In this document: in pieces, positions 3,978-36,338 of the stretch
Position numbering within the stretch: the stretch's first letter is position 1
How the letters are laid out: each line of letters opens with the position of its first letter
Virus record (IMG/VR): IMGVR_UViG_3300009008_000080
Coordinates: 1-43,702 of that record
Source of the DNA: a virus
Reading direction: 5' to 3' (one strand)
DNA: 43,702 nt
The notes under the pieces: generated by a model
What the model was told of the DNA's origin: nothing
The model's database searches: none
Seen by the model: the letters and a program-made list of their open reading frames with translations, nothing else
Made by a program: the position numbers and the translations under genes

Positions 3978-4937
3978 ATGTCAATGATTGAAAAAATGGA
4001 TGAATCCACAAGAGTTTTCTTTGAAAGGGAAATTGAGCATGTCAAGTCTCAGACCTATGATGTTCAATACCCAACACTAAAAGCACTTCAGTTGCTACCG
4101 ATGAACGATTCGGCTGGCCCTGGTGCTGATAGCATTACTTATGAGCAATTCGACAAAGTCGGTATGGCAAAAATCATCGCTGACTATGCCGATGACCTAC
4201 CTCGTGTAGACATCAAGGGTAAGAAATTCACGACCCCTGTTGAGTCTTTAGGCGACGCTTATGGGTATTCTCTTCAAGAGGTACGTTCTGCTGCTCTAGC
4301 AGGTCGTGCGCTTCAGACAATGAGAGCTGATTCTGCTCGTAGAGCAATGGCTCAAGAAGAGCACCGCATTTTGATGTTCGGTGATTCCACAACTGGTCTT
4401 CCAGGGTTCTTGAGTAACGCAAACGTTCCTTCTGTTGCTGTCCCTGCCGACGGTGCTGGTGGAGCGACAACTTTTGCTTCTAAGAGTGCAGACCAAATTT
4501 TGCGTGATATGAATAGCCTTGTAAACGGCATTGTAGACCTTACAAACGGTGTAGAAATGCCAAACACTTTGCTTCTTCCTATCTCACAGCACAGCTTGAT
4601 TGCCTCAACACCAAGAAGTGCAACGAGTGACACAACTATTTTGCAATACTTCTTGAATAACAACCCATTTATCACTGCTGTTGAGTGGGTTCATGACTTG
4701 AAGGCGCCTGCTGCTGGTTGGTTGGCACAACACGGTATCACATTGCCGATTGATACTGGTGACGTGATGGTAGCTTATGACCGCAACCCAAATAAGCTTA
4801 CCGCAGAAGTTCCTCAACCTTTTGAGCAGCTTCCTATTCAGGAACGCGGCTTAGAGTTCTTGGTGAACTGTCACCAACGTGTCGGTGGATGTATCATTTA
4901 CTATCCATTGAGTGTTTCAATTGCTGTAGGAATCTAA
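3978..4937 (+). CDS. Major capsid protein (DUF2184 family)
   Basis: A 319-residue protein resembling the DUF2184/encapsulin-like major capsid family with the HK97 fold. It has a long N-terminal helical arm with ESTRVFFEREIEHV, an expanded-loop region around residues 50-100, and a QEEHRILMFGDSTTGLPGF segment near residue 125 that is characteristic of the family. The RBS is AAAGGAG. The downstream terminator at 4939-4972 ends the capsid block, as expected for a very highly expressed gene. Confidence 0.9.
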   Translation: MSMIEKMDESTRVFFEREIEHVKSQTYDVQYPTLKALQLLPMNDSAGPGADSITYEQFDKVGMAKIIADYADDLPRVDIKGKKFTTPVESLGDAYGYSLQEVRSAALAGRALQTMRADSARRAMAQEEHRILMFGDSTTGLPGFLSNANVPSVAVPADGAGGATTFASKSADQILRDMNSLVNGIVDLTNGVEMPNTLLLPISQHSLIASTPRSATSDTTILQYFLNNNPFITAVEWVHDLKAPAAGWLAQHGITLPIDTGDVMVAYDRNPNKLTAEVPQPFEQLPIQERGLEFLVNCHQRVGGCIIYYPLSVSIAVGI

Positions 4938-30183: not shown

Positions 30184-30217
30184 GTGCGTCGCAGAGGATT
30201 GCGATAGCTTTGGGCTG

Positions 30218-30256
30218 GGCCTCAAGTCTTCCTGTGACTTGGGGCCTTTCTTATTT
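30218..30256 (+). terminator. Rho-independent terminator
   Basis: GGCCTCAAGTC and GACTTGGGGCC form an 11-bp stem with one G-T pair around a 7-base loop, followed by TTTCTTATTT. It ends the recombination unit. A second short hairpin (TTTGGCT / AGCCAAA) starts directly after it. Confidence 0.85.
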
Positions 30257-30335: not shown

Positions 30336-30375
30336 TGCATTTGTTTCTGAAACCTTTATGCATTTGTTTCTGAAA
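30336..30375 (+). repeat. 17-bp direct repeat upstream of small HTH-like gene
   Basis: TGCATTTGTTTCTGAAA occurs twice, at 30336-30352 and 30359-30375, with a 23-base period, in AT-rich non-coding DNA. The second copy ends just before the GGGGG ribosome site of the gene at 30385. It may be a regulator binding pair. Confidence 0.7.
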
Positions 30376-30588: not shown

Positions 30589-31380
30589 ATGCATAGAGGT
30601 TTTATAAAAATTTGGCGCCGCATAGATGATTGGGACTGGGCTGACGACCTGATAACTGTAGGATTTTTCTGCAAACTTATTCTTATGGCAAATTATAAAG
30701 ATAAGCGTTGGCACGGTATTGTTGTTCCAAGAGGCTCTTTTGTTAGCTCTCGTTCTTCATTAGCAAAAAAATTTAATGTATCAGAGCAACGCATACGAAC
30801 GTTGATAGGTCGCTTAAAATCAACCAACGAAATAACCACCGAATCAACCAGCTCTTACACTCTATACACTATTGTAAACTATAATAAATTTCAAAATAAT
30901 GAAATCCAATCAACCAGCGAAGCAACCAGCAATGTAACCAACTTCCAACCAGCGACCAACCAGCCATCAACCAGCGACCAACCACAACTAAAGAAAGAAA
31001 AGAATATAAAGAATGAAAAGAATGAAAAGAATTTAAAACCATTGTCGAACAAATTCGACGATAGGGTCGTTGAAGTCTTCGAGTACTGGAAGGAACAACT
31101 CAACCATCCTAAATGCAAACTCGATAAGAAGCGAGGGAATGCTATTAAGGGAAGGCTTAAGGAAGGTTATGACGTAGACCGCATCAAGCAGGCCATTAGA
31201 GGCATTAAGTTCTCAGCTCACCATATGGGGCAGAACGACCGTAACACGGTTTATGACGACATTGAGCTTATCTGCCGTACAGGTGCCAAGGTTGACCAGT
31301 TTGCCGAAATGGAAGAAAAGGGTGTTAGCCCGACAAAGGGAATAAACGTCGCCCGTTATGAAAAAATGGGCCTAATGTAA
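30589..31380 (+). CDS. Replication initiation protein (DnaD / phage O-like)
   Basis: A 263-residue protein. The N-terminal winged-helix part (GFIKIWRRIDDWDW, then SFVSSRSSLAKKFNVSEQRI) is of the phage replisome organiser type. Residues about 77-150 are a Thr/Asn/Ser/Gln/Lys-rich linker, and the C-terminal part (VVEVFEYWKEQLNHP, RLKEGYDVDRIKQAIRGIKF) is a conserved helical domain of DnaD-like replication proteins. The linker-coding DNA carries the iterons of a likely origin, as in lambdoid O genes. RBS is GGGGGGAAGG. Confidence 0.82.
   Translation: MHRGFIKIWRRIDDWDWADDLITVGFFCKLILMANYKDKRWHGIVVPRGSFVSSRSSLAKKFNVSEQRIRTLIGRLKSTNEITTESTSSYTLYTIVNYNKFQNNEIQSTSEATSNVTNFQPATNQPSTSDQPQLKKEKNIKNEKNEKNLKPLSNKFDDRVVEVFEYWKEQLNHPKCKLDKKRGNAIKGRLKEGYDVDRIKQAIRGIKFSAHHMGQNDRNTVYDDIELICRTGAKVDQFAEMEEKGVSPTKGINVARYEKMGLM
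30821..31038 (+). other. Predicted replication origin: iterons plus AT-rich stretch
   Basis: Repeats of YAACCAGCGA type occur at 30821, 30833, 30845 (12-bp spacing) and then at 30911, 30923, 30935, 30946, 30957, 30968, 30979 (12, 12, 11, 11, 11, 11). The 11-bp steps change the reading frame, so the DNA and not the protein repeat is conserved. An A-rich, nearly GC-free tract (30986-31038) follows, fitting a DNA unwinding element. The lambda origin inside gene O has the same design. Confidence 0.8.
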
Positions 31381-35575: not shown

Positions 35576-35848
35576 ATGAATTTGACTGAAGAACAAAAAA
35601 AAGAACTCGAAGAGCTGAAACAAGACCCCTTCTATAAGTTCTCGCTTAAGCAAACAGACCATGTATTTAGCCAGCTCATGGCCTATTACAACGCCTCAAA
35701 GAAAAAGGTAAAGATACCTGCAAAGGACTTCATACACCATTACTTTATGGGTCTTTTGCTTATTTGCGATGAGGCAGGATATTTGCAGTATTATAACGGC
35801 ATATCTAAAAAGGTTAGGGAAGAGAATGGTCAAACAAGTCAAGGTTGA
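35576..35848 (+). CDS. Hypothetical protein
   Basis: A 90-residue helical protein. It starts with a charged helix (LTEEQKKELEELKQDPFYKF), then a KIPAKDFIHHYFMGLLLICD segment that may be a helix-turn-helix or a short hydrophobic helix. It overlaps the ParB-methyltransferase relic by 23 bases. RBS before ATG is weak (AAAGG). Function unknown. Confidence 0.62.
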   Translation: MNLTEEQKKELEELKQDPFYKFSLKQTDHVFSQLMAYYNASKKKVKIPAKDFIHHYFMGLLLICDEAGYLQYYNGISKKVREENGQTSQG

Positions 35849-36338
35849 AAATATTACACCTTACGAAAAGAATGCAAAGAAGCACCCAAAGAAGCAAATT
35901 GAGCAAATAGCTCGCTCAATTGAAGCCTTTGGTTTTAACCAGCCTATTGTTGTTGATAAAGAAAATGTCATTGTAGTAGGTCACGGGCGCTTTGAGGCTG
36001 CAAAGAAGCTTGGAATGAAAGAAGTGCCTTGTTTACAGGTGGACTTAAACCAAGACAAAGTGAAGGCATATAGGCTTGCGGATAACAAGCTCAATGAAAG
36101 TGACTGGGAACATGGAACGCAAAAGCCGATTGAATGTATGCTTAGACCTATAAAGAACAACACTTCACCTGGTCACGCAGTTTATGACCCGTTCGGCGGA
36201 AGCGGTACGACTCTTATAGCTTGCGAGAAAAGCGGAAGACAATGCTTTATGATGGAAATAGACCCGTGCTACATTGATGCCATAATTGAAAGGTGGCAGG
36301 AATATACAAACGAAAAGGCAGTTAAGGTCGATGGCTAA
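35826..36338 (+). CDS. ParB domain joined to a truncated DNA methyltransferase
   Basis: A 170-residue protein. Residues about 3-90 are a ParB/Srx-like domain (QIEQIARSIEAFGFNQPIVV, VVGHGRFEAAKKLGM, RLADNKLNESDW). Residues about 95-165 are the C-terminal end of an N4/N6 methyltransferase, with TQKPIECMLRPIKN, the SAM-binding YDPFGGSGTTLIA and EIDPCYIDAIIERW. Full-length relatives are over 400 residues; the middle with the catalytic (D/N)PPY motif is missing at the junction near residue 95. It cannot methylate on its own as written. Confidence 0.8.
   Translation: MVKQVKVENITPYEKNAKKHPKKQIEQIARSIEAFGFNQPIVVDKENVIVVGHGRFEAAKKLGMKEVPCLQVDLNQDKVKAYRLADNKLNESDWEHGTQKPIECMLRPIKNNTSPGHAVYDPFGGSGTTLIACEKSGRQCFMMEIDPCYIDAIIERWQEYTNEKAVKVDG

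Follow-up and report, generated by a model that had tools for sequence, protein, structure and literature searches.

An iteron array with an adjoining A-rich tract inside a phage initiator gene: a probable replication origin and a candidate residue-to-base recognition code

The DNA analysed here, referred to as the window, is a whole 43.7-kb virus record (IMGVR_UViG_3300009008_000080, positions 1–43,702). A gene at 30589–31380, encoding a putative replication initiator, carries ten AACCA units on the same strand between 30821 and 30988, followed by an A-rich tract (Table 1). A sequence-only reading of this DNA had listed at least ten YAACCAGCGA-like units, and all ten were confirmed at their coordinates, each containing AACCA. 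The decamer was exact in only three units (30911, 30946 and 30968), the remaining units being looser. The successive spacings were 12, 12, 66, 12, 12, 11, 11, 11 and 11 bp, which agrees with the proposed 11–12 bp within both unit groups and departs from it at the one 66-bp gap between them. When YAACCAGCGA was counted across the whole window with up to two mismatches, 58 occurrences were observed against 54 expected; the signal is a local cluster, and the global count was dropped as support.

Other features were observed around the gene. Upstream of the initiator operon, a terminator-like hairpin (30217–30247) precedes an A+T-rich stretch with two exact copies of GCATTTGTTTCTGAAA (30337–30352 and 30360–30375) placed 23 bp apart, which are a possible operator pair. 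An inverted repeat, GTCGAA-CAAA-TTCGAC, is located directly 3' of the A-rich tract (31044–31059), and a gene at 35769–36338 fuses a ParB_N-like domain to an N6/N4 DNA methylase domain.

Table 1. Features of the initiator gene and of the repeat region that it contains
Feature	Coordinates	Strand	Remark
Initiator gene, 263 aa	30589..31380	+	winged-helix N-terminal domain, origin-encoded linker (putative), O-like C-terminal domain
Arg55 codon	30751..30753	+	start of helix 55–62, preceding recognition helix; covaries with iteron base 5
Gln67 codon	30787..30789	+	second residue of predicted recognition helix 66–78; covaries with iteron base 2
Iteron 1 (CAACCAACGA)	30821..30830	+	wing-coding part
Iteron 2 (TAACCACCGA)	30833..30842	+	wing-coding part
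Iteron 3 (CAACCAGCTC)	30845..30854	+	wing-coding part
A+T-rich spacer between the two iteron groups	30855..30910	+	possible second unwinding region
Iteron 4 (CAACCAGCGA)	30911..30920	+	
Iteron 5 (CAACCAGCAA)	30923..30932	+	
Iteron 6 (TAACCAACTT)	30935..30944	+	
Iteron 7 (CAACCAGCGA)	30946..30955	+	first frame change
Iteron 8 (CAACCAGCCA)	30957..30966	+	
Iteron 9 (CAACCAGCGA)	30968..30977	+	
Iteron 10 (CAACCACAAC)	30979..30988	+	
A-rich, purine-biased tract with AAGAATGAA repeats	30989..31038	+	proposed unwinding element
C-terminal domain, residues 158–246, lambda-O-like	31060..31326	+	proposed recruiter of the helicase or the helicase's loader

The protein was described earlier as DnaD/O-like, and the PHROG matches bore this out, being DnaD-like over the N-terminal half and O-like over the C-terminal half. 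PHROG 2514 (DnaD-like helicase loader) matched residues 2–153 (E 9.4e-24), PHROG 16167 (replication initiation) residues 118–246 (1e-25) and PHROG 18020 (O-like) residues 117–249 (E 1.4e-13). AlphaFold2 predicted a confident N-terminal winged helix (pLDDT >90 in most blocks) with helices at 21–33, 55–62 and 66–78 and strands at 82–86 and 91–95, followed by a disordered linker (106–156) and a helical C-terminal part of low confidence. By coordinate, units 1–3 encode residues 78–89, which close the recognition helix and cover some of the wing, and units 4–10 encode the linker. Pfam returned only a sub-threshold HTH_11 match for the window protein, which fell outside the Phage_rep_O N-terminal family; Phage_rep_org_N (PF09681) was absent from it and weak in 3/26 members (best E 0.0013). 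The C-terminal domain was up to 57% identical to those of Vibrio phage VvAW1 and others, whose N-terminal domains differ. A P-like helicase loader was sought downstream, where two proteins matched PHROGs of unknown function only and gave no match to the P-like genes that neighbour the initiator in related phages.

A search of the full model against the PDB gave weak winged-helix matches only, none at E <= 0.001. The top match was TubR (E 0.036), and the closest folds were mostly transcriptional repressors. In partition sites, direct repeats of ∼10–12 bp typically form an array to which small DNA-binding proteins bind. Together with the weak TubR match, this would suit a centromere-like site of the parC/tubC type, serving partition in a plasmid-like mode of maintenance; however, no partition motor was found among the ten neighbouring proteins scanned, and both the A-rich tract and the O-like domain indicate a role in replication, which makes this explanation highly improbable. 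The array could otherwise be an operator for autorepression or autoregulation of the initiator rather than an origin, as a winged-helix protein with binding sites in its own gene could serve there as a repressor or a roadblock, and the repressor folds, all weak matches, lean the same way. We consider this unlikely, since the array lies 230–400 bp into the gene and not at a promoter, is always followed by the weak A-rich tract, and belongs to a protein whose C-terminal half is O-like. Autoregulation could nevertheless coexist with origin function.

The repeats were compared with 5000 synonymous shuffles of the gene, in which the protein and the codon usage were held fixed. AACCA occurred 12 times in the gene against 4.1 ± 1.4 in the shuffles, and CAACCAG six times against 0.8 ± 0.8; both counts were reached in 0/5000. 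The self-match at lag 11 was 3.2 sd above synonymous shuffles. Steps of 12 and 66 bp preserve the reading frame, and units 1–6 therefore share a single frame, whereas the units at 30946, 30957, 30968 and 30979 rotate (frames 0, 2, 1, 0). The earlier argument that frame rotation rules out protein selection is thus limited to the last four units and fails for units 1–6; the synonymous test covers the remainder. These results bear on the explanation that the repeats merely follow from a low-complexity Ser/Thr/Asn/Gln linker that is maintained for the sake of the protein. Such a by-product would fit the similar peptides encoded by units 1–6 in their common frame and the T-, N- and Q-rich linkers of all relatives, but it accounts neither for counts that synonymous shuffles never reached, nor for four final units read in three frames, nor for the lag-11 excess seen again in most relatives. 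We regard it as scarcely credible, the synonymous test having already largely refuted it.

Relatives were collected by protein search, giving 59 loci initially and several hundred overall. They share a layout consisting of wing-encoded units, an array at approximately nucleotides 320–390 of the gene, and then AAGAATGAA repeats or a similar purine tract. The arrays hold about 5–8 units in 11-bp steps. The sequence-only reading had suggested searching related phages for the same repeat, and diverged relatives indeed carry repeats at the corresponding place and with the same spacing, in a unit sequence that depends on the lineage. Over 47 non-redundant genes, the mean self-match was 0.511 at lag 11, where synonymous shuffles gave 0.390, and 0.462 at lag 22, where they gave 0.367; the excess at other lags was small. 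The gaps in the fitted arrays were 11 bp in 590/869 and 12 bp in 205/869; as the array fit favours 11, the lag spectrum is the cleaner evidence on spacing.

Several records among the relatives deserve a separate comment. At the 3' ends of their genes, loci L065 and L026 encode near-identical C-terminal domains (NNKYSFLASLL...), joined to N-terminal domains and iteron classes that have little in common; this combination suggests that modules are exchanged at the origin. In Vibrio phage 1.183.O (MG592549.1; locus L127, 1351–1380), a "CRISPR spacer" annotated within the repeat region of the initiator gene is probably a misread repeat array. The 35.8-kb record of Dulem virus 31 (PP511318.1; L133) includes a replisome organizer and is assigned to Microviridae, a taxonomy line that looks wrong.

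Covariation between the N-terminal columns and the iteron sequence was analysed in 92 non-redundant initiators (<80% identical). After removal of the overall N-terminal distance, residue 67 was the column most strongly related to iteron sequence (partial r -0.39) and residue 55 the next (partial r -0.23), while 300 permutations over the tested columns gave values no more extreme than -0.22. Wing residues 83–89 also correlated with iteron sequence and were set aside as trivial, because they are encoded by the iterons. The iteron registers were inferred by refitting on the RAC core and allowing free shifts, a procedure that made no use of the protein residues. An initial register, obtained by rotation to a running mean, had left the CTAACA class at least two bases out and suggested C/T at base 5; the refit gave C/A and a cleaner code. 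Among all N-terminal residue-by-base pairs, the strongest was residue 55 with base 5 and the second strongest residue 67 with base 2. Gln67 was accompanied by A at base 2 in 30/30 initiators and Arg67 by G in 14/16 (Q/R by A/G, p = 9e-11; 92 initiators). Where residue 67 was Gln, Arg or Met, Arg55 went with C at base 5 in 26/27 and a non-Arg residue with A in 19/20 (p = 6e-11). The reading of A by Gln and of G by Arg, which at base 5 is the G on the opposite strand, is familiar chemistry.

Codons 55 and 67 are located upstream of the first iteron, and the covariation is therefore not a coding artefact; repeat DNA that tracks these two residues argues further against a by-product of the linker. 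On a tree built without columns 55 and 67, 8/9 independent Q/R pairs and 11/12 independent Arg55 pairs were concordant, and none was reversed. The wing-region units, which lay outside the fit, sorted in the same way, with 28 AACC units to 1 GACC in the AACC class and 27 GACC units to 5 AACC in the GACC class. In held-out initiators (n = 26, <85% identity), 25/26 agreed with the code; some of these loci came from query peptides that included iteron-encoded residues, and none was selected on residues 55 or 67. At the exception, L295, the array window was misplaced, and the stretch read there still contains CAACCAGCGA. By inspection, named phages combined Arg67 with CGACAAG and TGACACC, Gln67 with TAACAAA, and Lys67 with GGGCAAGC; 6/6 had a non-Arg residue 55 together with A at base 5. 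The window itself, with Gln67 and Arg55 beside CAACCAGCGAC, fits the code. Taken from sequence comparison, these observations are strong indirect evidence that the N-terminal domain would bind the iterons.

An A-rich tract had been reported after the iterons, and a weak duplex is present there, at 30989–31038. The four least stable 50-bp stretches in the window include this tract and the stretch 30854–30912, and three window stretches, the tract being one, have that purine bias. The tract contains the exact 24-mer AAGAATGAAAAGAATGAAAAGAAT (31009–31032), which a scan of viral contigs returned in 68 stretches, nearly all of them within initiator genes of this kind and in frame. One match clearly departed from this and was the sole exact tract match to fall outside an initiator gene: a short, repeat-rich stretch at a contig end (L092, ∼4000–4581, reverse strand), where AAGAATGAA repeats lie beside 23-bp repeats (GGTTTCATTGATCGCGTGTGTCT). 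BLASTN of the AAGAATGAA tract against named phages gave no match, possibly through low-complexity filtering. In 88 genes chosen by protein search alone (a first version of the test used selection by the exact 24-mer), Lys codons before Asn in the tract were AAG in 295/308, compared with 52/143 elsewhere in the same genes (p = 4e-43), and Asn codons in the tract were AAT in 320/327. This codon bias indicates that the DNA sequence is kept, beyond the KNEKN peptide. Its instability and position suggest that the tract may be the unwinding element. As a speculation, it might also be a single-strand binding site: Bacillus subtilis DnaD requires paired 5'-TnnT-3' motifs on single-stranded DNA (PMC10201434), and motifs of this kind are present in the tract's complement.

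The general arrangement of an origin within an initiator gene is already known. Lambdoid origins, namely ori-lambda and the Stx phage ori, carry iterons and an AT-rich tract in the middle of gene O, with four iterons in lambda and six in Stx phages, the two extra iterons adding 13 residues (PMC7466680). The window shares with them the location of iterons and tract in a linker between DNA-binding and helicase-recruiting parts, as well as the O-like C-terminal domain, and to this extent the earlier comparison with a lambda-type origin was apt. It did not extend to the repeats: lambda-like iterons take about 18–20 bp per unit, whereas the window has ten 11-bp direct repeats with a unit every 11–12 bp. 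Its initiator also differs in having an N-terminal domain of the DnaD-like winged-helix kind, and no P protein was recognised. The replisome organizer gene 38 of SPP1 likewise contains direct repeats and an AT-rich unwinding element at oriL (PMC6316719), with repeat sequence and protein unlike those of the window; the second SPP1 origin, oriR, lies ∼13 kb away, and no second array of the same kind was seen in the window. In pSK41 Rep (RepA_N), as in the window, a DnaD-like winged-helix N-terminal domain is paired with sites in its own gene and a linker encoded by the origin (putative in the window); Rep binds boxes central in its gene, and the RepA_N N-terminal domain and origin are exchangeable as a module, the N-terminal part of pPR9 resembling a phage replication protein (PMC5703833). 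It differs in having four Rep boxes, and characterised RepA_N iterons are mostly semi-palindromic (PMC7145576); RepA_N (PF06970) was not matched in the window protein or 25 relatives. A likeness is also seen to PHROG 2514 DnaD-like loader or "replisome organizer" genes, such as those of Cellulophaga phi18:3, Vibrio phage 1.135.O and Dulem virus 39, which have a homologous N-terminal domain and 11-bp iterons in the same place. The sequence of their iterons departs from that of the window in the way expected from residues 55 and 67, and their purine tract is also different, being AATAATGAA-like in some.

The best-supported reading of 30821–31038 is that it is very probably a replication origin embedded in the phage's own initiator gene, similar to those of lambda and SPP1, in which 11-bp direct iterons are joined to an A-rich tract for unwinding. 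The origin claimed by the sequence-only reading is thus supported, on the basis of the DnaD-like and O-like PHROG matches, the repeats kept in diverged relatives and a repeat sequence that tracks residues predicted to contact DNA. GC skew, which had been proposed as a check, was positive over the entire window with no switch at 31 kb; being uninformative, it was dropped as evidence on the origin. DnaA boxes were not found within the putative origin, the closest match being at ∼29929 on the minus strand.

From sequence comparison we infer binding, unwinding, helicase loading and origin firing at this region, as follows. The N-terminal winged-helix domain would bind the ten direct iterons, with Gln67 of the recognition helix reading A at base 2 of CAACCAGCGAC and Arg55 the C-G pair at base 5. 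Initiator copies spaced about one helical turn apart would line up on a single face of the DNA, and the assembled complex would open the adjoining A-rich AAGAATGAA tract. The O-like C-terminal domain would then bring in the host replicative helicase, probably via a phage loader encoded downstream.

On balance, we favour the view that these phage initiators form a large family with reader and sites in one gene, in which specificity would be largely set by a two-residue, two-base code (67 with base 2, 55 with base 5). Lineages would have switched class repeatedly, with arrays, including the wing-encoding units, rewritten to match, while the separate AAGAATGAA tract, which at synonymous sites does not vary with class, would serve as a shared single-strand or unwinding signal. 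The family layout and the recognition code are the parts not found in the papers searched; for the code, the search covered literature outside subscription, the main phage replication-module review being among the subscription papers.

In the PLE satellites of Vibrio cholerae, RepA variants and origins covary and function only in cognate pairs (PMC8263062). A joint change of origin and initiator specificity is hard to study because the two usually lie apart and few natural pairs are known; here, both are in one gene and many natural switches are available. Since the AAGAATGAA tract is conserved, the opening step may be shared and independent of iteron class. The code yields specific binding predictions from sequence and could be used to locate origins and compatibility classes in many uncultivated phages.
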